From: Candidatus Sumerlaeota bacterium
GTDB taxonomy: Bacteria > Sumerlaeota > Sumerlaeia > JAFGJS01
DNA length: 29,819 nt
Assembly (NCBI GenBank): GCA_016928995.1
Contig: JAFGJS010000057.1
Span: forward strand, 1-29,819
Direction: 5' to 3'
Part shown: positions 7,158 through 21,050 of the stretch, one piece after another
How the letters are laid out: each line of letters begins with the position of its first letter
Numbering within the stretch: position 1 is the first letter of the stretch
Position numbers and translations under genes: made by a program
The notes under the pieces: generated by a model
Database searches by the model: none
What the model was told of the DNA's origin: nothing
Seen by the model: only the letters and a program-made list of their open reading frames with translations

Positions 7158-8078
7158 TCATCGTTTCGCATACTTGACGTTTTTTTCGATTTGCCTGGCG
7201 ATCAATTGCCCCAGCCAGTTTTTCAGCAAGGGCAGCCACTCCAGCCAGGCGGAATTGTTCCGCACCGCCAGGCCGAGATGCCGTTGCGGCGCGCCGTCGC
7301 GGAAGGGCAGGCAACGCAATTGGCGAAAGCCGCGCAAATCCGGCAGCGCCAGTTGCGGCATCAACATGTATCCGGCTTGCCATTGGAGACAATGGAGCAA
7401 TGTGCTGAACGAACAGGCCTGCAATGAACTAGGCTCGAACGACAGTTGCCTTCCGCACAGCGAGATCACCTGGTCGCGGAAGCAGTTTCCCTCCGTCAGG
7501 AAAAACCGCGTTCCCTTGGCCAGATCATCCAGCGAGATGGAGTCCTTTTCCTCGGATTTCCGTACGACCACCCAGATAGGATCCTCGGCGAGCGGCTCTT
7601 CCACGAGCATCGAATCCCGGACCGGCAGGCTCAGGATCGCCGCGTCCAGTTGACCTCGTTTGACGAGTGAAACCAGATGCGACGTGTAATCTTCCACCAG
7701 ATTGATTTTGATTTCGGGCAATTGTTTGGGCGGATTTCTGAAAAGTTCATCGGCGATGTACGGTCCGACGGTCGGGATGACGCCGAGCTGGATATCTCCA
7801 TTTGGCAGGATCTTTTCCCCACTTTCAGCAAATAAGTGCCGCCATTTGACCAGGATTTCACGGGCCTTGAAAATGAACCTTTCCCCGTCTGGCGTGGGGC
7901 GCACGCCGCCCGATGTGCGCTCGAATAGATCATAGCCCAGGTGCTCCTCCAGCTTTCGGATTTGCTGGCTTACTGTCGGCTGCGTCACATGGCATTCCCG
8001 CGCGGCCATGCTGAAACTTTGCGTGTCCGCCACGGCCGCCACGTATCGCAGCGTCATAATGTCTGATATAGGCTCCAT
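7158..8078 (-). CDS. oxyR: OxyR, LysR-type peroxide-responsive regulator
   Basis: The 306-aa protein has an N-terminal LysR helix-turn-helix (about 8-66: SMAARECHVTQPTVSQQIRK) and a C-terminal effector domain. Cysteines fall at 199 and 208 in EGNCFRDQVISLC, the same positions and spacing as the redox pair Cys199/Cys208 of E. coli OxyR, where peroxide makes a disulfide that changes DNA binding. TLRYVAAVAD and RTSGGVRPTPDG fit the family. The ATG at 8078 is preceded by TAGGAT at suitable distance; a later ATG at 8057 is possible. The divergent neighbour is catalase, a standard OxyR target, and the shared region holds a candidate operator overlapping the oxyR start, as expected for autorepression. 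Confidence 0.92.
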   Translation of the reverse strand: MEPISDIMTLRYVAAVADTQSFSMAARECHVTQPTVSQQIRKLEEHLGYDLFERTSGGVRPTPDGERFIFKAREILVKWRHLFAESGEKILPNGDIQLGVIPTVGPYIADELFRNPPKQLPEIKINLVEDYTSHLVSLVKRGQLDAAILSLPVRDSMLVEEPLAEDPIWVVVRKSEEKDSISLDDLAKGTRFFLTEGNCFRDQVISLCGRQLSFEPSSLQACSFSTLLHCLQWQAGYMLMPQLALPDLRGFRQLRCLPFRDGAPQRHLGLAVRNNSAWLEWLPLLKNWLGQLIARQIEKNVKYAKR

Positions 8079-8104
8079 CTATATATCCTATTGAGTATTT
8101 CGAT
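8068..8104. promoter_or_regulatory. Candidate OxyR operator, four half-sites
   Basis: Four half-sites occur at exact 11-bp steps: ATAG (8068-8071), CTAT (8079-8082), ATTG (8090-8093) and CGAT (8101-8104), each separated by 7 bases. This is the known OxyR tetramer pattern ATAG-N7-CTAT-N7-ATAG-N7-CTAT, with two perfect and two single-mismatch half-sites. The left pair overlaps the oxyR start codon. A weak -35/-10 pair for catalase (TTCAAT 8105-8110, TTAATT 8128-8133, 17-base spacer) begins right after the last half-site, which would suit direct activation. Confidence 0.6.
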
Positions 8105-8223
8105 TTCAATTATGGGTGCTGCACGGGTTAATTTCAAGTCTTGATTGAAGGGCGCCTTTGCTCTGCGACGCTGGCAGCGGCAGAGCCAAGCTATTTCTTG
8201 AGCAATTCAAAAGGAGTATTGAA

Positions 8224-9708
8224 ATGGGAAAAAGCAAAAAGAACAGACTAACCACCGCCGACGGTTGCCCGATTGCTGATAATCAAAATTCGCTCACCGC
8301 CGGACCGCGAGGGCCGCTGTTGATGCAGGACGTCCAGCTGCTCGAGCAAATGCAAAGTTTCAACCGTGAACGCATCCCGGAGCGCGTCGTGCACGCCAAG
8401 GGTTCTGGAGCGTATGGCACGTTCACCGTCACGAAGGACATTACGAAATACACCAAGGCGAAACTGTTCTCCAAAGCCGGCAAGCAGATGGAGACCTTCC
8501 TGCGATTCTCCACCGTGGCCGGAGAGCGCGGCGCCGCGGATGCTGAGCGCGACGTGCGCGGATTCGCCCTGCGCTTTTATACGGAAGAGGGCAACTGGGA
8601 CTTGGTCGGCAACAACACGCCGGTCTTCTTCATCCGCGATCCGTATAAATTCGCCAACTTCATCCACACCCAAAAGCGCGATCCGAAGACCAACATGCGC
8701 TGCCTGAACATGCAGTGGGATTTCTGGTCGCTCAGCCCGGAGAGCATGCATCAGGTCACGATCCTGTTCAGCGACCGCGGCATCCCGAAGAGCTACCGCC
8801 ATATGAACGGCTACGGCAGCCACACCTACAGCCTGATCAACGCCAAAGGCGAGCGCGTATGGTGCAAGTTTCACTTTAAAACCATGCAAGGCATCGAGTG
8901 CCTAACCGACAAGGAAGCGGCCGAAATCGTCGCTCAGGACCGCGAATCGCATCAGCGCGATCTATTTCACGCCATCGAAAAGGGCGATTATCCCAAGTGG
9001 AAGTTTTATATTCAGGTGATGACGGAGAAACAGGCGCAATCGTTCAAGTATAATCCGTTCGACCTGACCAAAGTCTGGCCGCACGCGGAGTATCCGCTGA
9101 TCGAGGCCGGCGTGCTCGAACTCAACCGCAACCCGGAAAATTATTTCGCCGAAGTCGAGCAGGCCTGCTTCAGCCCCAGCGCCGCCGTGCCGGGCATCAG
9201 CTGGAGTCCGGACAAGATGCTGCAAGCGCGGCTGATGTCCTACGCTGATTCGCATCGCTATCGCGTCGGCACGAACTACCAGCAGCTGCCCGTGAACAAG
9301 CCGCGCTGTCCCGTGATGCATTACCAGCGCGACGGATTCATGTCCACCGGGCAGGGCGGCAGCGCGCCGAACTACGAACCCAACAGCGATCCGGACAGCC
9401 CCAAGGAATCGCCGGAGTTCAAAGAGCCGCCGTTGCCGCTGGGCGACGTGGCCGCTGACCGCTACAATCATCGCGAGGGCAATGACGATTACACGCAGGC
9501 CGGCGATCTGTATCGCCTGATGACGCCGGAGCAGCAAAAGCGTCTATGTAAAGCCATCGCCGGCGGACTGGGCCAGACCCGCGAAGAGATTCAAATGCGG
9601 CAGTTGTGCCACTTCTTCCGCGCCGATCCGAAATACGGCGCCGGCGTCGCCAAGGAGCTTGGCGTCGATGTCTCGAAAATCGAGAAGCAATTGGCGCAGG
9701 CCAAGTAA
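8224..9708 (+). CDS. katA: Monofunctional heme catalase
   Basis: The 494-aa protein is a small-subunit haem catalase that breaks hydrogen peroxide into water and oxygen. Key residues are in place: distal His57 in [12 protein letters not shown], distal Asn130 in [15 protein letters not shown], and the haem-ligand Tyr341 in [12 protein letters not shown]; their spacing matches bovine catalase His74/Asn147/Tyr357. The length fits small-subunit catalases, without the flavodoxin-like extension of large ones. The ATG at 8224 follows AAAGGAG at 7 bases; the frame is open further upstream but without family similarity. There is no signal peptide, so it is cytoplasmic. It is divergent from oxyR with an OxyR-type operator between them, and is followed by a strong terminator. 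Confidence 0.96.
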
Positions 9709-10726: not shown

Positions 10727-11014
10727 TATTTCCTTTCGATCGAGGGATTTAAAGGGATAGGTTAAAAAAAGACGGTATTAATTCTCCGCCGTTTTTCCTG
10801 CCATAGAGATCATGGATAGCGGATTCATGTCAAATCAATAAACGGATTCGAGGCGAGGATCGAGGTTCTGTAATTCCATCGGAAATTGATCTTCGATAAG
10901 GGATCGTTTTTTTTTGTAAGAAAAATAATCCGCTTGCGTCAATAATTGAGAGGATGCATGCAGAGTGCGCCAATTGGCAAGACGGCCGTCCAAATTTACG
11001 GGGATTGTGTTCTG
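10727..11014. other. Divergent intergenic region before the sigma factor gene
   Basis: This AT-rich stretch separates the minus-strand NTF2-like gene from the plus-strand sigma gene and must hold promoters for both. A good -10-like AATAAT lies at 10941-10946 but its expected -35 position is poor. I did not find a clear ECF-type promoter pair, so autoregulation cannot be claimed. An earlier ATG at 10958, with GAGAGG close before it, is an alternative start for the sigma factor. Confidence 0.4.
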
Positions 11015-11599
11015 ATGAAAAACAAATATGCGGAGTATGTCGCACAACAGCTCGAAGAGCACGGGCAAATGGTATTTGCGACCGCATATCGCATCCTTGG
11101 AAATGCGGATGACGCTGAGGATGCGATGCAGGAAGTGTTTCTGAAGGTTCTCAAAAAACTGACATGGTATCTGAATCCGGATAAGCCTCGTGATTGGGGC
11201 GCTTTCCTTCGAGTGATGGCGGCCCGGCAGGCGATCGATATCTTCCGTCGAAAGAAGAGCCGGAAGGAAACCGCTCTCGAACCTGTCGAACCATTTGTGC
11301 GATCAACAGGAAACAATCCCCGTCAAACCGCCGTGATGCGGGAAAGGATTGAGCAGCTTCGCGGCGCATTGAAAACCTTGCCGAAAAATGAAGCATGGGT
11401 CTTCGTCTTAAAATATATCGAAGGTTTATCTTATGATCAAATTGCGGCCCATACTGGTTTTAGCGTCAGTTTTACAGGCGTTCTGTTACATCGCGCGCGC
11501 AAACGCCTGAAAACAATTCTTGAACCATTGCCGGCCGCTGAAAATCAGCAGCAAAACTCAGGCGCACTCGCCGTCGGAAAGGAGAAAAGCCGTGCCTAA
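11015..11599 (+). CDS. ECF-family RNA polymerase sigma factor
   Basis: The product is 194 aa from ATG 11015. Region 2 runs from YAEYVAQQLEEHGQMVF through ILGNADDAEDAMQEVFLKVL, with the core-binding D-A-E-D-x-x-Q-E motif, to the -10-reading FLRVMAARQAIDIFRRKK. Region 4 follows a linker: LKTLPKNEAWVFVLKYIEGL, then the helix-turn-helix SYDQIAAHTGFSVSFTGVLL and ARKRLK. There is no region 1.1 or region 3, which makes it ECF type. The ATG at 10958 would add 19 residues without family similarity. Its stop overlaps the start of the next gene by 8 bases, so the two are translated together and that product is its likely regulator. Confidence 0.88.
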   Translation: MKNKYAEYVAQQLEEHGQMVFATAYRILGNADDAEDAMQEVFLKVLKKLTWYLNPDKPRDWGAFLRVMAARQAIDIFRRKKSRKETALEPVEPFVRSTGNNPRQTAVMRERIEQLRGALKTLPKNEAWVFVLKYIEGLSYDQIAAHTGFSVSFTGVLLHRARKRLKTILEPLPAAENQQQNSGALAVGKEKSRA

Positions 11600-12545
11600 T
11601 CGAAATAACAAGAATCAGATGCAAAGCCCAGAACAGCCCGATACGGATTTTCTCCGGGATTTCATCGACGACTTGCGCTCTGTAGGGCCGGATGCATCGG
11701 ATTACAATCAGGCCCGACGCAATTTGCTGCAAACATTGAGTGAAATTCCAAAGGAGAGCTTCATCATGAGTAAAATCGTCAAACCGATACAATCAAGCCC
11801 AATTAAATTGACGGCGACAGGGGTGTCGCTGCTGTTGGTCGCCATGCTGATCTCCATCAATCTGTTCGGCGGCAATAGCGGACAGGACGGCTATGCCCAG
11901 TTTGCAAAATCGATGAGTGATGCGAAAATCGTCACCTGCAACGTGGATTTGCAGCTCGACGAAAAATCCGGGCATGAACTGATGAAACTGGCGTTTAACC
12001 AGGACGGCGTTCAGCGTATCGAAACGGGTCCGGATGGGCACAAGCTCGTTCAAATCACCAATACGCAAGAGGGCAAAAACATCCTCATTATACCCGAGAA
12101 GAATGCATACATCCTGCGCGACGTTTCAGGAGTTGAATGGCAGGATAAGTTTCGGATGAAAGCGATCTACCTGGTGCAAAATGATCTCAAAAAAATGCCG
12201 GAGCAGGCGGACGAGATTTTGCCGGGGAAAAGCGTCAATGGGAAGAAAGCCCTGGGATACCGCGTGGAGGATCGAAGTTACTGGGTTGACAGCAAGACTA
12301 ATCAACTCGTGCTCGTGGATCTTAAATGGAACAAATCGCGCATGATCATGAGCAATTTCAGCATCAATCCGTCCGGCTACGATGAAAGCATGTTCAAACT
12401 CGTTGCGCCGAAAGGTTATATCGACGCCTCAGATAAGGTCAAGCCTGAGGCCAAAATGAAGGTTCCCGAGGGCAATATGGAAGTCAAACCGCAGCCCAAG
12501 GAAGGACCGGGAGGCACAGGCGAGAAGAAGGTGTGGAAGAAGTAA
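11592..12545 (+). CDS. Probable anti-sigma factor: single-pass membrane protein with LolA/RseB-like extracytoplasmic domain
   Basis: A GTG at 11592 with GGAG 7 bases upstream gives 317 aa. About 65 cytoplasmic residues (DTDFLRDFIDDLRSVGPDAS, then an Arg/Leu-rich helix) precede one membrane helix (LTATGVSLLLVAMLISINLF). The outside part is beta-rich with repeated hairpins (GVQRIETGPDGHKLVQI, NILIIPEKNAYILRD, KALGYRVEDRSYWVD, NQLVLVDLKW). This resembles the LolA/LppX/RseB fold that binds lipid or lipoprotein acyl groups. A low-complexity Lys/Pro/Glu tail ends the protein. There is no zinc anti-sigma HxxxCxxC motif. The overlap with the sigma gene and the topology make an anti-sigma role likely; the LolA-like reading is by pattern only. 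Confidence 0.7.
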   Translation: MPNRNNKNQMQSPEQPDTDFLRDFIDDLRSVGPDASDYNQARRNLLQTLSEIPKESFIMSKIVKPIQSSPIKLTATGVSLLLVAMLISINLFGGNSGQDGYAQFAKSMSDAKIVTCNVDLQLDEKSGHELMKLAFNQDGVQRIETGPDGHKLVQITNTQEGKNILIIPEKNAYILRDVSGVEWQDKFRMKAIYLVQNDLKKMPEQADEILPGKSVNGKKALGYRVEDRSYWVDSKTNQLVLVDLKWNKSRMIMSNFSINPSGYDESMFKLVAPKGYIDASDKVKPEAKMKVPEGNMEVKPQPKEGPGGTGEKKVWKK

Positions 12546-12702: not shown

Positions 12703-14580
12703 TTAGTCGCTCTTTTTCACAGGAGTGAGCTGCAGGTTGACATCGGTGCGGCGGGAGTCGAAATGAATGCTGATGAACAAAGTCTCCAGCCGGTTTGAAA
12801 GCAGGCGCAGGAAACTGAGCGCCGCTTGCGCGGAAAACTCGCCGATGCGCGCGCTGTCGATCATCCCGGCGGTCAATGGATTTTCCAGCGTCTCGATCGC
12901 GTTTTGTTTTTCACTGTCCATGCGCATGCCGAGGAAAATCTGCGGTTTCTCGTCGATAATTTCCCGCAAGGGTTTGAACTCCTGGTTGCTCGCGATGGAG
13001 GGTTTGCCGCCTTCCAGCGTATCGACCGCGAGCCGGATGGCGTCCTTGTCGCCGTAAGCCAGGTAGCGCTGATAGACCAGCGCCACGGGCATTTCGGCCG
13101 ATAGCGGGGTGGAATCGGCCGGCATGATTTCGAACATGCGGCCGCCGTGATGATCGGATTCCTTCAAGGTGAAAAGATCGCTGTTGAGTTTGGACATGAT
13201 GGTGCGAATGGTTTTTTCCATCGCCGCCGGATCTTGAATTTCCATGATCGAGCATTGCGCGAGGCGGGGATTCGCCTCGTCGCCCAACTCGACTGTGAAG
13301 CGCGCCAGGTCTCCCTGGCCCTGATTGATGATCTCTTTGCGATAATCCATCCCATATTGCTCACGAAAGGCCTTGCCGAATTCCGCGAGCATATCCGCAT
13401 CGGATTTGGTTCCGCTGCCGGATTCGAGCCAATCGAACAGCCGCGGCAAATGGATGCCCAGCCCCAGCGTTTCCTGGGCGTTCTGCGGAATGAAGCGAGT
13501 GATATTGGATGAAACCGGTTGGAAAGCTTTGAGCAAGTACCCCGGCGCCCCTTCCTCCGCATTGTCGTATAGCATGCTGCCATGGATGCGCAGCTGGCCG
13601 CCATCCATGGCCAGCGACGCGCCCAGGCCGGTGACGTGCTCCATCCCGCTCAATTGCTGTTCGGCCTTGCCGCCATACAACTCGCGCGCCTGATCGTTGC
13701 GATATTTGCGGTATCTGTCGAAATTCAACCACATCCGCATCAGCCACTCTTTATCGTGTTTGCGAAAGGCGTCTTCAAACGGCTCGAAATGCGCCAGACT
13801 GTTGTCATTGAGCCTCCGCAGCAAACGCACGAAGTCTTTTCCTGTCTGGTCGTCGCCGTCGCACAATAGAAAAACGCCGTCGATGAAGCCGTATTGGATG
13901 TTGCGGTCGAACTTTTCATGTTTGATTTCCATGTTCGCCCGGCGTTCTTCCGGGATCAGCTGACGCAGCTCTTCCAGTTGATCCTCGCGGATCGAGATGC
14001 CGTTGACGACCAGCATTTCCTGCGGATATTTGACCTGGTATATTTTGGCGTCCTCGATGGTGAGCACGTTTCGTTCGGCGCGCTCCGGGGCGTCTGCGCT
14101 GAAGAGCTCAGCGTATTTTTTGAAGGTCGCTGGCGGAACGTCGCGCATTTCCAGCAGCAGGGTCGCGTCGTAGACGTAACTGTCGCCCATTGGAAACAGC
14201 TCGCGAACGACGATCGCGGCTTGTCCGCCAAAGATCTGCCGCAGATCCTCCTCGCTGAGCTGCCCGTCATTGCGCTCCGTATGTTTCAGCATGTCGAGGT
14301 AGGAGCGAATTGTTTGCGTGAGGATCATCATGACCGGCTCATCCCAAACATTCGCCAGGGAAGTCTCCGCCCATTGCTTGCGCAGCTGCTCCAGGTTACG
14401 GGCTTGAAGGAGTATCGTGGAGTCTTGCGGCACGGCCTCGGCGAAATCATTGATCGTCGCGGCGGCCGGCGCGGGAGCGCACAGCGTAAAAATGATCGCC
14501 AGCGTGGCAAGTGCATATTTAACGAGGTTATTGGATCGGGCCGCTAGACCCGCAGAATTAGCCTGAAGGATCGTCAGCAA
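12703..14580 (-). CDS. Large exported protein of unknown function (DUF3352-like pattern)
   Basis: The 625-aa product starts at TTG 14580, chosen because AGAGG lies 8-9 bases upstream and no ATG occurs before residue 69. A hydrophobic segment (KYALATLAIIFTLCAPAPAA) serves as a signal peptide or anchor. The mature start INDFAEAVPQDSTILLQARN recalls the opening of DUF3352-type exported proteins. Later landmarks are GMEHVTGLGASLAMDGGQLR, FIPQNAQETLGLGIHLPRLF and AIRLAVDTLEGG, alternating strands and long helices of a repeated alpha/beta design. No catalytic motif is visible. It sits 49 bases downstream of a trypsin-like protease gene on the same strand, so the two form an operon and may work together. 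Confidence 0.7.
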   Translation of the reverse strand: MLTILQANSAGLAARSNNLVKYALATLAIIFTLCAPAPAAATINDFAEAVPQDSTILLQARNLEQLRKQWAETSLANVWDEPVMMILTQTIRSYLDMLKHTERNDGQLSEEDLRQIFGGQAAIVVRELFPMGDSYVYDATLLLEMRDVPPATFKKYAELFSADAPERAERNVLTIEDAKIYQVKYPQEMLVVNGISIREDQLEELRQLIPEERRANMEIKHEKFDRNIQYGFIDGVFLLCDGDDQTGKDFVRLLRRLNDNSLAHFEPFEDAFRKHDKEWLMRMWLNFDRYRKYRNDQARELYGGKAEQQLSGMEHVTGLGASLAMDGGQLRIHGSMLYDNAEEGAPGYLLKAFQPVSSNITRFIPQNAQETLGLGIHLPRLFDWLESGSGTKSDADMLAEFGKAFREQYGMDYRKEIINQGQGDLARFTVELGDEANPRLAQCSIMEIQDPAAMEKTIRTIMSKLNSDLFTLKESDHHGGRMFEIMPADSTPLSAEMPVALVYQRYLAYGDKDAIRLAVDTLEGGKPSIASNQEFKPLREIIDEKPQIFLGMRMDSEKQNAIETLENPLTAGMIDSARIGEFSAQAALSFLRLLSNRLETLFISIHFDSRRTDVNLQLTPVKKSD

Positions 14581-14629
14581 TGTGCCGCCTCTGCTTTCTG
14601 GGTTTGACGTTTGCGAATGAGCCGGCCGG

Positions 14630-15628
14630 TCATTCGATTTCAGTCATGGGATCGAGATAACGATAGCCGGACTTGCCGCTTTGTTTGTCGAATTCAAAGG
14701 ACTTGTCGTTTTGCAGGAAGAGGTGGATGTATTGCGCCGGCAGCGCGAAGGCGATTCCTTCCTGGAACGATGCCTTAAGCGTGACCAATCCGACGACTTC
14801 GCCGCGGCTGTTGATCATCGGACCGCCGCTGTTGCCCGGATTCACCGCCGCATTGGTTTGGATATATAGCAGATCGTTGATGTTGCGGTTCGGCGAGCTG
14901 ATGATGCCGTCCGTGACGGTGTATTCGAGGATCTTGTCGCCCATGCCGGGATTGCCCACGGCGTAAACCTGCTCGCCGGCCTGAAGACTGGGGCCGTCGT
15001 AAATGCGCAAAGGATGCAGTTGGAGTTTATCCAGTTCTTCATCCGGAATTTTCAGCAGCGCAATGTCCATCAGTTGGCTGGAGGCGAGCACGGGCGCCTC
15101 TTCGATTTTTACGCGCTCGACCTGCTTTCCGTTCAACTGCAGCAGGGTGATTTTTTGATACTTTTCTCCGCCGATCACGTGATTGTTCGTGATGATGTGC
15201 CCCAGATCGTCAATGATGAAGCCGGAGCCCAGGCCTTGGGCGTTGGAAACAACGACGACGCCGAGTTTGACGCGTTCGATCATTTCCTTGTGCCGCAAAC
15301 CGGGGTTGAACGGACGCACCGTTTGATACGGCATGGCGCCTTCGCGTTCAACGGTTTTGTAACTTTCCGTCGCGGCGCCGGAATCGGCGGTTGTATTCTC
15401 AATGAGCGTCTTGATCGCTTCAGCCACGCTCGAACGCGGGACTTTCAGGATATCGAAGCCCATATCGAGGAAATAATAATCGTCCGTTTCCTTGATCAAC
15501 TGGCCTTCCACTTGCATGCCGCTTTGCAGTTTGAAGCGCCGCACATTGTCGGTGTTGTCATCCGCGCCGCGAGCGGCGAGGGCTAGCCCAAGCAGAACCA
15601 GCCAAATAACAGCTTGATTTTTATACAT
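14630..15628 (-). CDS. Exported trypsin-like serine protease (S1C/HtrA-type, no PDZ domain)
   Basis: A signal peptide (IWLVLLGLALAARGA) opens the 332-aa protein. An SH3-like beta module (FKLQSGMQVEGQL, YYFLDMGFDILKVPRSSV) occupies about 30-70, and a trypsin-like domain about 115-310. The catalytic triad is intact: His150 in ITNNHVIGG, Asp188 in LMDIALLKI and Ser267 in NPGNSGGP. The chain ends soon after the protease domain, so the PDZ domain of DegP/DegS is absent and substrate choice must come from elsewhere. It should degrade or clip proteins outside the inner membrane. AAGAGG lies about 10 bases before the ATG at 15628. The gene is divergent from the FG-GAP protein and leads an operon with the unknown exported protein. 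Confidence 0.87.
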   Translation of the reverse strand: MYKNQAVIWLVLLGLALAARGADDNTDNVRRFKLQSGMQVEGQLIKETDDYYFLDMGFDILKVPRSSVAEAIKTLIENTTADSGAATESYKTVEREGAMPYQTVRPFNPGLRHKEMIERVKLGVVVVSNAQGLGSGFIIDDLGHIITNNHVIGGEKYQKITLLQLNGKQVERVKIEEAPVLASSQLMDIALLKIPDEELDKLQLHPLRIYDGPSLQAGEQVYAVGNPGMGDKILEYTVTDGIISSPNRNINDLLYIQTNAAVNPGNSGGPMINSRGEVVGLVTLKASFQEGIAFALPAQYIHLFLQNDKSFEFDKQSGKSGYRYLDPMTEIE

Positions 15629-15699
15629 GATATTTTAGCCTCTTACTAGAACATCGGAGATAAATGCTAACATGATGAGATCCTGTATGAAAGATAATT

Positions 15700-15728
15700 T
15701 TTTTATTAATGGAATCAGCGGAAGTCAA
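15700..15728 (-). promoter_or_regulatory. Candidate sigma-70-type promoter for the protease operon
   Basis: Read on the minus strand, TTGACT (15728-15723) is a five-of-six -35 match. After a 17-base spacer comes TAAAAA (15705-15700), a four-of-six -10 match in an A/T-rich tract. Transcription would begin near 15693, about 65 bases before the protease start. Confidence 0.45.
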
Positions 15729-15743
15729 CAGAAAGGAAACGAG

Positions 15744-18017
15744 ATGAAACAGCGCCGTTTTGCCAGCTCGCTGATCCGGATTTTACTTTTTGCGTCATTG
15801 TTTGCGGCTTCAGCGTCGCAACTTCAAGCGAAGACAATCGAGCATCTGCGTTTCGGCAAGCCCGTGAAGGCTGAGGCCGATTGGTCCAGCGAGATTATGC
15901 GTTGGGGCGATCTGAACGATGATAAACGCTTGGATTTTTTCACGATCAACAACCGGCACAGCGTGATCGAGGCGTATTATCAGCAGCCGAAAGACGCGGA
16001 ACTGCCGTTGGAAAAGAAGAAATGGGTGATCGAACGGACCGTGTCGGACGCCGTGCTGCTGGATATGGACGGCGACCGGCGCGAGGATATCGTGCTGGCG
16101 GGCGAGCCATGTTTTGTGCTGTATCAGGGAGACGACGGGGCCTTCGAGAAATCGCGCGATCTGTCGTTCGACGCGAAATACCTGTTCGTCGTCTCGCTCA
16201 ACGATGACAAGCTGCCCGATCTGGCCGGATTCGCGAATGAGGAACTGCTGCTGGCCACGCGGAAGGACAGCAAGACGCGGGAGTTTGACATCACCAAACG
16301 TCCGAACGGGCATTCGCCGGTCAACCGGCCGTTGCTGGCGGATTTGGACGGAGATGGGCTGGAGGATCTGGCCTACGTCAGCGCGACGAATCGCGATCAG
16401 GTCGTGATTCGCTCGCGTAACAAAGCCGGCGGCTTCAATCCGGAGCGGACCTACAAAACCGGACTCACGCTATCCATCGACGCGATGCGCGATGGCAAGC
16501 AAGGCGCATGGCTGGCCGCTGTGGAGGACAACACCCGTACGGCGAAAATTCTGGCGTTTGAACAGGCGTCGAAGGAGGAGATGGCGGAATTCCCCTTCGA
16601 TGACGTGCAGATTATTCCGTTCACGGGCTCTCCGGCAGGCGAGCATTTTGCCGTGGCGGATTTGAACGGCGACGGCGCGGACGAGGCCTTCCGCTTCTCG
16701 CCGGAAAGCGCGGAGTTGAATCGCTTCGCCTTCGGCCGCTCGCATGCGGAAACGTTCTCCGAGCATCCGATGTTTTCCGGGATCAGCAAGGCGCGTTTCC
16801 TGATGACTGGAAAACCGGTGATCCGGGAAATCGTGGTCATGACGTCGAAGGAAGAGGCGTTCGGCATCGTCCGGCCGAACGAGGACGGCGAGCCGGGATT
16901 GCCGGAGCCTTTCGACGCGGGGGGCAAACCGCTGGTTTTCGACTTGTGCGATATGAACGCTGACGGTCTGGATGATCTGCTTTGCGGCCTCAAAAACGAT
17001 GCGAACAACAAGGTGGCGTTCCATTATTTCCCCGGCCTGAACAACGGCGATTTTCAGAGTTCGCCGTCCGTGACGCTGGAATTTAAAGCGCCCCTGGGCG
17101 ACGATTTCGATCCGGAAGACATCATCGCGGGAGACATGAACGGCGACGGCCGTCCGGATCTCACGGTGTTTTTCACCTACAGTCCGCCGCAAATCTTCCT
17201 GCAACAGGAAGGCGGCGCGTTCAAGGCGCTGCTCACGCAATCCGGTCTGAAGAAAGGCTGGTTCAACGAGATTCGCGCAAGGCACTTCCGGTTGATCGAC
17301 TTCGACGGCGACGGAAAGGACGAAATCGCGCTGGCGCAAAAGGAATATGTGCGGATCATCTCGCTCTCGCCGGACGGCGAATTGGATCTGCTGGCGCAAT
17401 TCAACGGCGAAGACAGCCAGTCCGATCTGTTCGGGATTCTGGTCATGGACGCCAACGACGACGGTCAAAAGGAAGCGGTCGTATTGGACAAAGGCAACAA
17501 GCGGCTGCTGCTGTTCCATCCTGACGAACCGGAAGAGCCGTATCATACGGTGGACCTGGGATCCATCGAGGGCAAGGGGCTGCGGATCGCTGACATGAAT
17601 GGCGACGGCAAGAGCGATCTGGTGATCGAAGGCCGCAACAACCTGGGATTGCTGATGCATGGCGTTGCGCCGAAAACGCTGGAAACCCTGGCGCGCAATT
17701 CGACAGAGATCGAGGACGGCAAGTATATCACGGTGCGTTGCGCGGACATCAATGGCGACGGCCTGGATGAAGTGCTATTGATGGAGATGACAGAAAACAT
17801 CCTTGAGTTCTTTCAGTTCCATACGCCCAATGAATGGAACAAGGTTTTTCAATTCAAAGTGTTCCAGGGCGAAGGACCGACGTTCAGCGGCTACCGGCTG
17901 AAGAGCGAGATGAGCATGCCGCGCCAGATTGAGGCTGTGGACTATAACGGCGACGGGCTTGCGGATCTGGCGCTGTTGCTGCACAATATGCTGATTATCT
18001 ATCCCCAGGAGCAATGA
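15744..18017 (+). CDS. Exported VCBS/FG-GAP beta-propeller protein
   Basis: From ATG 15744 (AAAGGA 6-7 bases upstream) the product is 757 aa; an in-frame ATG at 15672 lacks a ribosome site and precedes a natural signal peptide (RILLFASLFAASASQLQA). The rest is a chain of FG-GAP/VCBS-type repeats, each with a calcium-loop motif: DLNDDKRLD, DMDGDRRED, DLDGDGLED, DLNGDGADE, DMNADGLDD, DMNGDGRPD, DFDGDGKDE, DANDDGQKE, DMNGDGKSD, DINGDGLDE and DYNGDGLAD, plus one degenerate copy (SLNDDKLPD). Such repeats fold into calcium-stabilised propellers that bind proteins or sugars at the cell surface. No anchor, sorting tail or catalytic domain is visible. Its stop overlaps the ATG of the next gene. Confidence 0.88.
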   Translation: MKQRRFASSLIRILLFASLFAASASQLQAKTIEHLRFGKPVKAEADWSSEIMRWGDLNDDKRLDFFTINNRHSVIEAYYQQPKDAELPLEKKKWVIERTVSDAVLLDMDGDRREDIVLAGEPCFVLYQGDDGAFEKSRDLSFDAKYLFVVSLNDDKLPDLAGFANEELLLATRKDSKTREFDITKRPNGHSPVNRPLLADLDGDGLEDLAYVSATNRDQVVIRSRNKAGGFNPERTYKTGLTLSIDAMRDGKQGAWLAAVEDNTRTAKILAFEQASKEEMAEFPFDDVQIIPFTGSPAGEHFAVADLNGDGADEAFRFSPESAELNRFAFGRSHAETFSEHPMFSGISKARFLMTGKPVIREIVVMTSKEEAFGIVRPNEDGEPGLPEPFDAGGKPLVFDLCDMNADGLDDLLCGLKNDANNKVAFHYFPGLNNGDFQSSPSVTLEFKAPLGDDFDPEDIIAGDMNGDGRPDLTVFFTYSPPQIFLQQEGGAFKALLTQSGLKKGWFNEIRARHFRLIDFDGDGKDEIALAQKEYVRIISLSPDGELDLLAQFNGEDSQSDLFGILVMDANDDGQKEAVVLDKGNKRLLLFHPDEPEEPYHTVDLGSIEGKGLRIADMNGDGKSDLVIEGRNNLGLLMHGVAPKTLETLARNSTEIEDGKYITVRCADINGDGLDEVLLMEMTENILEFFQFHTPNEWNKVFQFKVFQGEGPTFSGYRLKSEMSMPRQIEAVDYNGDGLADLALLLHNMLIIYPQEQ

Positions 18018-18019
18018 CG

Positions 18020-18901
18020 ATGATCGGCCGCAGGAGCCGCCAGTTTCATCGGAACATGGCGCTGCATTGGATCATTGTTTGCGCCGTGCTGGCATGCATG
18101 ACGGCGCATGCGCAGACAACGGCTGTTGATGCGGCTTCATCATCGCGCGTATTGGAGCAGACAGAGGACGCTCCGGAATCTTCGACGGAAGAACAAGCCA
18201 GTCATCAGTATGGCGATTTGCTGGGCGATCCGCGAGTGTTTGCTTATGAATTTGTTCCGCCGCTGGGAGTGGACGATTCGATCTATTTATTGCGTTCGGC
18301 GATGCTGTTGCTGAAGCCGGAAACGCGAAATTACGTGCCCCTCGACCGTCCGAAAATCATGCAAATGTTGAAAATCAATATCGATTACCTCCAATTGATG
18401 GACAACCGTTATTCGACGTTGCGTCATTACACCTGGATCGCCATCGGCGAGCAGGGCGTGGCCAAAGGCGGCAAGGATCGTGATGAATTCCGCCCCAGCA
18501 CGCCAATCGAGAACGTTTCGGCCATCGCTGTGCGCGTGGAGCATGAAGACGTTCGTCTGGAGCGGCTGGAGGTTTGGGATGTGAACCGGAATGGGATCGA
18601 GTTGCCCGTGACGGGCCGGATTTTCCCGCACGGCAAGCCGGCCCGGGATGTGATTTTCCTCAATCGGCAAGTGACGTTGGAACGGGTGAAGGTGACGGCG
18701 GCCTCGACTGATTCGAGCCGCGAAGCGGAACTGGTGATTGAGGCGGGCATCACATCGGAGCCGGAGCACGCCAAGTATGCGATTGATGAGATCAACACCG
18801 CGCGCAAGGATGTGCAGGAAGGCGCGGATGGCGAGGCGATCGAGTGTCTGAAAAGAGCATGGCGGCACTTGAACCGGTTCAAGGAGCAAGTCGGTCTCTA
18901 G
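18020..18901 (+). CDS. Exported protein of unknown function, coupled to the FG-GAP gene
   Basis: The product is 293 aa from ATG 18020, which has AGGAG 8 bases upstream; an ATG at 18014 overlaps the previous stop as ATGA but is too close to that site. A signal peptide (HWIIVCAVLACMTAHAQ) is clear. A Ser/Glu-rich linker is followed by a helical segment (SIYLLRSAMLLLKPETRNYV), beta-rich stretches (VSAIAVRVEHEDVRLERLEV, LNRQVTLERVKVTAAS), and a long C-terminal helix (IDEINTARKDVQEGADGEAI). I know no family for it. The tight coupling implies that it is made with, and probably binds, the propeller protein. Confidence 0.72.
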   Translation: MIGRRSRQFHRNMALHWIIVCAVLACMTAHAQTTAVDAASSSRVLEQTEDAPESSTEEQASHQYGDLLGDPRVFAYEFVPPLGVDDSIYLLRSAMLLLKPETRNYVPLDRPKIMQMLKINIDYLQLMDNRYSTLRHYTWIAIGEQGVAKGGKDRDEFRPSTPIENVSAIAVRVEHEDVRLERLEVWDVNRNGIELPVTGRIFPHGKPARDVIFLNRQVTLERVKVTAASTDSSREAELVIEAGITSEPEHAKYAIDEINTARKDVQEGADGEAIECLKRAWRHLNRFKEQVGL

Positions 18902-18944: not shown

Positions 18945-21050
18945 ATGGCGCAGTTGAAAAAAATGCAGTTGATGAAAAAAGAGCTGAGTCTGCTCAGCAT
19001 CTTCGCGCTCGCGACGGGCGCCACGCTGAGTTCAGGTTTTTTTCTGCTGCCAGGGCTGGCCTTCGAGGATGCGGGGCCGGCGCTGAGCCTGTGCTATCTG
19101 ATCGCGCTGCTGCCGTTGATTCCGGCGATGCTCTGCAAGGTCGAACTGGCCACGGCGATGCCCCGCGCGGGCGGCGTGTATTATTTTCTGGATCGCAGCA
19201 TGGGGCCGCTGGTCGGCACGATCGGCGGCATCGGCACGTGGCTGGCTCTGACGCTGAAGACAGCCTTCGCGCTGATCGGCATGGGCGCGTATATCCATCT
19301 CTATTTGCCGTCGATGAACGTGCTTCCGCTGGCGGCGATTCTCGCCGTGCTGTTTGGCGTGGCGAACCTGTTCGGCTCTAAAAAAGCCGTCGGTCTGCAG
19401 ATCGGACTGGTCGCAGTGCTGCTGCCGATCTTGTTGTGGTTCACTGGCGCGGGATCCATGCAAATGGACACGAGCCATTTCCAGGGATTCTTCAACAAGG
19501 GCTTCGATTCAATCATCGCAGTGGCGGGCATGGTGTATATCAGCTACGTGGGCGTGACGAAAGTCATCAGCGTATCCGAAGAAGTAAAGGATCCCGAGCG
19601 CAATCTGCCTTTGGGCATTTTCCTGGCGGTGGGCGTGGCGGCGGCGATCTACACGCTGGGCTGCTCGGTGATGGTCGGCGTGCTTTCGCCGGATAAGTTT
19701 TACGGCAACACGACGCCGGTGGCTGACGCAGCGTTGATTATCGCTGGTCCTTGGGGCAAGGCCCTCGTGACGATTGCGGCGCTGGCGGCGTTTTTCGCCG
19801 TGGCCAATGCGGGAATCCTGAGCGCCTCGCGCTATCCGCTGGCGATGTCGCGCGATCATCTGGTGCCGACGATCTTCCGCCGCTTTAATCGCTTCGGCAT
19901 GCCGCATGTGAGCGTCATCCTGACGCTGGCCTGCGTGTTGACGGCGCTGCTGATCGATCCGCTGAAGATCGCCAAACTGGCCAGCGCGTTTCAACTGCTG
20001 CTGTTCGCCATGCAATGTCTCGCCGTGATCGTGATGCGCGAAAGCGAACTGGCGTCGTACGATCCTGGTTTCCGCGCGCCGTGGTATCCGTGGCTGCAGA
20101 TCTTCGGCATGGCCCTGCCGATGTGGATGATCTACGAGATGGGCTGGCTGCCGATGCTTTTCACCTGCGGACTGATCGTGGCTGGCGCGGCGTGGTATTT
20201 TTACTATGCTCGCGGGCAGATCGTCAGGCATGGGGCGATCTTCCATGTGTTCGAACGCATGGGGCGTTCGCGCTATGAGGCGCTGGACACCGAATTGCGC
20301 GGCATCATGAAGGAAAAGGGGCTGCGGGAGCAGGATCCTTTCGATGAGGTCGTCGCCCGCGCGCAAGTGCTGGACATGGAAGAAGCGGTTTCATTCACCG
20401 AGCTTACGCATCGGGCGTCGGAACTGCTATCCCGGCGAGTGCCCTTGAATGCGAAGCAACTGGCCGCCGGTTTTCTGGAAGGCACGGGCGTGGGCGCCAC
20501 GCCGGTCTCGCATGGAGCGGCCTTGCCGCATTTACGTGTGCAGGGGATCAAATCGCCGCAGATGTTGATCTGCCGGGTGTCGAAAGGCATCCGGATCGAC
20601 ATCGAGGGGCCGCTGGGGCCGCCGCCGGAAGAGCCAGTGTATGCAATCTTCTATCTGGTCAGCTCCTCGGATGACGCCGCCCAGCATTTGCGCATTCTGG
20701 CCCAGCTGGCGGCTCACATTGACAATGACGAGTTCATGAGCCGCTGGATGTCCGTGCGTCAGGAGCATGAGTTCCGCGAACTGCTGTTGCGCGATGAGCG
20801 GTTTATCATTTTGAATCTCAAACGCCTGACGCGCACGGAGACATTCATCGGTTTCGCCATTCGGGAAATCCAATTGCCGAAGGGATGCCTGATCGCATTG
20901 ATCCGGCGCGAGGAGCACTCTATTGTGCCGGACGGCGATACGGACTTGCACGAGGGTGATAACTTGACCATCATCGGCGATCCCAAGGGCATCCGTCATC
21001 TTTATGCGAAGTATATGGATGGCCTGCCGGAAGATACGCTGGAGGAGTGA
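18945..21050 (+). CDS. APC-superfamily permease fused to EIIA-like and TrkA-C domains
   Basis: The 701-aa protein has three parts. Residues about 12-425 are an amino acid-polyamine-organocation permease with some twelve helices; ALATGATLSSGFFLLPG is the unwound helix-1 signature and VISVSEEVKDPERNLPLG the conserved helix 6-7 loop. About 475-620 resembles a PTS EIIA-2 (nitrogen/fructose) domain, with the candidate phospho-acceptor His529 in GAALPHLRV. About 628-695 is a TrkA-C/RCK-C ligand-binding domain (FAIREIQLPKGCLIALIRRE, DLHEGDNLTIIGDP). It should import an amino acid or organic cation, gated by phosphorylation or a small ligand. The start at 18945 follows GGGAAAGG. No PTS genes are nearby. 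Confidence 0.85.
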   Translation: MAQLKKMQLMKKELSLLSIFALATGATLSSGFFLLPGLAFEDAGPALSLCYLIALLPLIPAMLCKVELATAMPRAGGVYYFLDRSMGPLVGTIGGIGTWLALTLKTAFALIGMGAYIHLYLPSMNVLPLAAILAVLFGVANLFGSKKAVGLQIGLVAVLLPILLWFTGAGSMQMDTSHFQGFFNKGFDSIIAVAGMVYISYVGVTKVISVSEEVKDPERNLPLGIFLAVGVAAAIYTLGCSVMVGVLSPDKFYGNTTPVADAALIIAGPWGKALVTIAALAAFFAVANAGILSASRYPLAMSRDHLVPTIFRRFNRFGMPHVSVILTLACVLTALLIDPLKIAKLASAFQLLLFAMQCLAVIVMRESELASYDPGFRAPWYPWLQIFGMALPMWMIYEMGWLPMLFTCGLIVAGAAWYFYYARGQIVRHGAIFHVFERMGRSRYEALDTELRGIMKEKGLREQDPFDEVVARAQVLDMEEAVSFTELTHRASELLSRRVPLNAKQLAAGFLEGTGVGATPVSHGAALPHLRVQGIKSPQMLICRVSKGIRIDIEGPLGPPPEEPVYAIFYLVSSSDDAAQHLRILAQLAAHIDNDEFMSRWMSVRQEHEFRELLLRDERFIILNLKRLTRTETFIGFAIREIQLPKGCLIALIRREEHSIVPDGDTDLHEGDNLTIIGDPKGIRHLYAKYMDGLPEDTLEE

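Follow-up and report, generated by a model that had tools for sequence, protein, structure and literature searches.

The exported proteases HtrA, DegP and DegS (Do family) possess a trypsin-like domain with an H-D-S triad and the motif GNSGGP, and carry PDZ C-terminal to that domain. A functional analogy is offered by NlpI-Prc of E. coli, an exported protease with a dedicated recognition subunit that is encoded by a gene of its own (PMC5686067). In Streptomyces avermitilis, one protein (NP_825221.1) has been reported to carry three to four FG-GAP repeats behind the trypsin domain of the same chain (PMC2605481); this is a single actinomycete case, for which neither separate-gene forms nor DUF3352 were reported.

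Here we describe a locus whose protease has the trypsin-like domain, triad, GNSGGP motif and, apparently, the export of the HtrA proteases. Different from HtrA, DegP and DegS, however, it lacks PDZ, as do 15 of its 15 relatives, and its match is far under the family cut-offs; an FG-GAP propeller, separate or fused, occurs in the PDZ position, and a DUF3352 protein is an additional partner. The locus also differs from NlpI-Prc, whose components have other folds (a TPR lipoprotein adaptor and a PDZ tail-specific protease) and are not known to be accompanied by DUF3352. The open-access papers searched yielded no description of such a module, nothing on FG-GAP with trypsin-like proteins in Planctomycetes and nothing on DUF3352. 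The module is apparently undescribed.

Organization of the Locus

The window, by which we mean the whole analysed stretch of 29,819 nucleotides, is one whole contig of a 4.5-Mb, 161-contig assembly of a Candidatus Sumerlaeota bacterium. In the set of 39 genomes that represented the class, no other belongs to the same family. The four open reading frames (ORFs), their divergent arrangement and the 115-base gap are as a previous sequence-only reading gave them (Table 1). They are real genes rather than chance ORFs, because homologues of each occur in other genomes. The gap length holds provided that the propeller gene starts at 15744; this start gives the protein a hydrophobic N-terminal stretch and is preceded by AAAGGA. 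The propeller ORF and the fourth ORF share 4 bases. Judged by eye, all four proteins have signal-like N-termini, in agreement with the export signals assigned to them before. Promoter and terminator scans of the locus gave scores no higher than those of shuffled sequence, so that it is geometry alone that suggests a shared control region. Rfam and tRNA scans gave no matches.

Table 1. Coordinates of the features of the locus in the window.
Feature	Position	Strand	Remarks
DUF3352 protein gene	12703..14580	-	625 aa from a TTG start, with a signal-like N-terminus; third module member
PDZ-less HtrA-like trypsin-family protease gene	14630..15628	-	332 aa
Catalytic Ser267 codon, motif GNSGGP	14828..14830	-	S in 76/76 aligned proteases
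Catalytic Asp188 codon	15065..15067	-	D in 76/76 aligned proteases
Catalytic His150 codon	15179..15181	-	H in 76/76 aligned proteases
Divergent intergenic region	15629..15743	.	115 bases, from sequence
FG-GAP beta-propeller protein gene	15744..18017	+	757 aa; 11 D-x-[DN]-x-D type loops
Fourth gene	18014..18901	+	295 aa; local neighbour

Other genes of the window flank this locus. At 10946–12545 on the forward strand, a gene for an ECF-type sigma factor overlaps that of an anti-sigma-like membrane protein, much of which is exported, and the two converge on the DUF3352 gene. An ECF gene (30% identity) comes after the propeller gene in one class-mate, G002; the ECF sigma factor was rejected as a module partner, being found beside the locus in that genome only. 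A LysR-type regulator gene diverges from a catalase gene at 7158–9708, by sequence an ordinary OxyR-catalase arrangement. Finally, 18945–21050 encodes an amino-acid-permease-like transporter whose long C-terminal extension resembles, by eye, PTS EIIA plus TrkA-C.

Features of the Encoded Proteins

The description of the protease as trypsin-like and PDZ-less was borne out. It matched Trypsin_2 of Pfam at 1.7e-28, its H150, D188 and S267 triad is intact and invariant among the aligned proteases (Table 1), and no PDZ match was found in it or in any of 15 relatives. TIGR02037 matched residues 126–305 at 9.1e-40, with a score of 136.9 bits that is below the curated NCBIfam cut-off of 416.2 bits. 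A short N-terminal domain that appears beta-rich/SH3-like by eye precedes the catalytic domain at about residues 30–75.

The multi-repeat FG-GAP propeller was likewise recognized by Pfam, with FG-GAP_3 (PF13517) matching at 5.3e-40 in 10 stretches and PF01839 in 6. From the spacing of its calcium-type loops, the propeller probably has about 14 blades. A PDB sequence search with the propeller profile returned generic FG-GAP proteins only, which were secreted esterases and integrins.

Two of the four proteins had been thought to belong to no family. This holds for the fourth protein, which had no significant Pfam match, but not for the 625-aa protein, which matched DUF3352 (PF11832) at 28.7 bits against a Pfam gathering cut-off of 26.8; thus, only one of the four is without a family. 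Of 15 class relatives, 8 also matched DUF3352 (E up to 0.01). Among PDB sequences, the DUF3352 profile gave no significant match. The predicted model of this protein (pLDDT 74) matched TP0453 of Treponema pallidum best among PDB structures, with a Z score of 11.9 and an rmsd of 5.1 over 218 residues. Different from TP0453, to which it is about 9% identical, the DUF3352 protein is more than twice as long and has no clear lipobox. Further fold matches, with Z scores of 4 to 7, paired the first half with DcrB, TiME and PsbP, and the second half with the extracellular domain of PknH. The model hints at tandem PsbP/LpqN-like domains, a fold that does not give the function.

The fourth protein was modelled as a beta-sandwich with helices (pLDDT 82), and a fold search with it gave numerous weak beta-sandwich matches, none of which was decisive. 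Its homologues were found in 24 other genomes of the class. Among 20 of their loci, the gene lies behind cinA in 11 and ahead of tsaD in 5, and no homologue was beside a propeller or protease gene (0/20). Thus, the fourth gene is a local neighbour and was rejected as a member, and the four-gene composition proposed for the locus is not retained. The family itself consists of exported proteins without a Pfam match that are linked to the cytoplasmic housekeeping genes cinA and tsaD.

Distribution in the Class of the Window Genome

Close relatives of the protease were identified in 16 other genomes of the class and those of the propeller in 17. A DUF3352-like gene is directly after the protease gene in 15 of the 16 class-mates (in one of which it is cut by a contig end), and the protease and DUF3352 genes therefore form a conserved operon. 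The remaining class-mate, G037, has two DUF3352 genes on other contigs. The propeller gene is unlinked from the protease gene in most genomes of the class. In G002, the protease-DUF3352 pair is divergent from the propeller gene with one gene between. In G038, the protease seemed to be fused as well (open frame 1015), but this was dismissed as mere read-through upstream of the start.

On a class tree of ribosomal proteins from 33 genomes, the deep branches of which are weak, the presence of protease and propeller required four changes (3–4 in bootstraps), and it is these weak deep branches that underlie them. The two genes were gained or lost jointly, with the exception of G036 (80% complete), in which no protease was found. 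Given that the genes are mostly unlinked in the class, physical linkage does not explain their joint presence and absence.

Distribution in a Second Phylum and Beyond

A scan of genome contigs outside the class identified one close protease, L155 of G099 (recorded as Planctomycetaceae), where the order is propeller (-), 141 bp, protease (+) and DUF3352 (+), the same as in the window. The phylum of G099 was searched as the second phylum, with 392 genomes and cut-offs of E up to 1e-30 for the propeller and up to 1e-58 for the protease. Of these genomes, 83 carry the propeller and 104 the protease. The two occur together in 79, the propeller alone in 4 and the protease alone in 25, and 284 lack both (Fisher p 5e-55, a value that ignores relatedness). 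Two of the propeller-only genomes, G104 and G449, were discounted, their protease being cut off by contig ends. The protease-only genomes do not count as evidence against the association either. For 20 of the 25 the locus was fetched, and a more divergent propeller adjoins the protease in 19, so that most protease-only calls arose from the strict propeller cut-off of 1e-30. The sequence-only reading had taken the two halves of the locus to belong together and had named their never co-occurring as the outcome that would speak against it. They do belong together: they co-occur in 79 of the 83 propeller genomes, are neighbours within 5 kb in 51 and share one ORF in four.

The arrangements within 5 kb were 33 divergent, 10 with the propeller followed by the protease, 9 with the protease followed by the propeller (fusions included) and 1 convergent, where G146 and G204, which carry two copies, are each counted twice. 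In the 33 divergent cases, the gaps ranged from 97 to 606 bp, except for one of 1742 bp, with a median of 240 bp. DUF3352 genes were near the protease or propeller gene in most loci of the second phylum, and their positions varied, being behind the protease, behind the propeller or between both. The propeller tree required 15 changes of arrangement, compared with 47 for shuffled labels. The gene orders thus reshuffle while the trio remains together. Other recurrent neighbours were found only among close relatives. In G146 and G204 (L370, L365 and contigs C65, C143) and in G280, of the two copies of the module one is divergent and one is a tandem protease-DUF3352-propeller array; those of G280 are partly cut by contig ends.

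Among 386 genomes sampled around that of the window, mostly from other phyla, the full-length propeller family was restricted to the class and G705, whose match coordinates are identical to those of G149 of the second phylum. Weak partial FG-GAP matches of about 1e-23 were found in four more genomes.

Protease-Propeller Fusions

Four second-phylum genomes (G177, G227, G418 and G181) encode protease and propeller together in a single ORF, 1010 to 1123 codons long, such as the 1111-aa protein of L393. The triad motifs are kept, about 8 to 24 residues separate the two profile matches, and a DUF3352 gene comes after the fused ORF; the Pfam run covered three of the four fused proteins. In the fused ORFs, the propeller is C-terminal to the protease, where the HtrA proteases carry PDZ. 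The four fused proteins form one clade in the propeller tree (SH-aLRT 100), so that the fusion is a single evolutionary event. We know of no fusion between NlpI and Prc.

Discussion

The association of protease, propeller and DUF3352 is well supported, as the three are linked or co-occur across two phyla. Given that the trio stays together in two bacterial groups and that fusions exist in a few genomes, the three proteins probably act as a single proteolytic machine of the cell envelope. Our reading, to which we assign a probability of roughly 0.55, is that the three genes form a cell-envelope module, in which a PDZ-less HtrA-like protease has the propeller as its dedicated partner and DUF3352 as the third member. 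All three proteins are apparently exported. The propeller would stand in for PDZ in position and probably also in function, binding or placing the substrate or gating the active site; its position suggests substrate binding rather than demonstrating it. The DUF3352 protein would be the third subunit and might serve as an adaptor or chaperone near the membrane, as may be judged from its linkage and from the fold match of a model of pLDDT 74. We infer that the proteins form a physical complex with these roles, acting on a substrate in the periplasm rather than at the surface.

An unlikely alternative is that the propeller is itself the substrate of the protease, in which case it would be exported for a surface or adhesion role and be matured, shed or quality-controlled with the assistance of DUF3352. 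The co-occurrence and the divergent or tandem linkage would equally fit a dedicated protease-substrate pair, and FG-GAP propellers are frequent in surface and adhesion proteins, in keeping with the esterases and integrins matched in the PDB. However, the propeller stays on the protease chain across four diverged genomes, which better suits a working subunit, self-processing being nevertheless possible.

Less probable still is that the propeller, the DUF3352 protein or both inhibit or latch the protease until a cue, for example calcium or stress on the envelope, releases it. The partner genes are dedicated, the propeller has calcium-type loops and the DUF3352 gene is within the protease operon, all of which would suit such a role, whereas the fold search with DUF3352 returned no inhibitor-like fold and TP0453 as the best match. 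By sequence alone this alternative and the module with the propeller as a working partner are inseparable. Finally, that the exported genes are unrelated and stand together by chance or shared ancestry, with no functional link, holds for the fourth gene and would fit a propeller mostly unlinked from the protease in the class, but for protease, propeller and DUF3352 it is strongly disfavoured, and very improbable, in view of adjacency in 51 genomes plus 19 more, reshuffled orders, fusion, and joint presence and absence while unlinked.

Returning to the three-gene module, we propose tentatively, at somewhat less than even odds, that it may be a new envelope protease machine, in which a propeller, probably a double one, replaces PDZ for recognition and control and DUF3352 is obligate. 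Among the genomes sampled, about one quarter of those from the second phylum, probably Planctomycetota, would have it, as would some members of the class of the window genome. DUF3352 and a family of FG-GAP propellers are thereby placed in a context that is concrete and testable, and the fused forms, being single chains, are suited to structure and activity tests. Our results suggest that, in bacteria with unusual cell envelopes, a propeller-coupled protease exists beside the usual PDZ-coupled HtrA.
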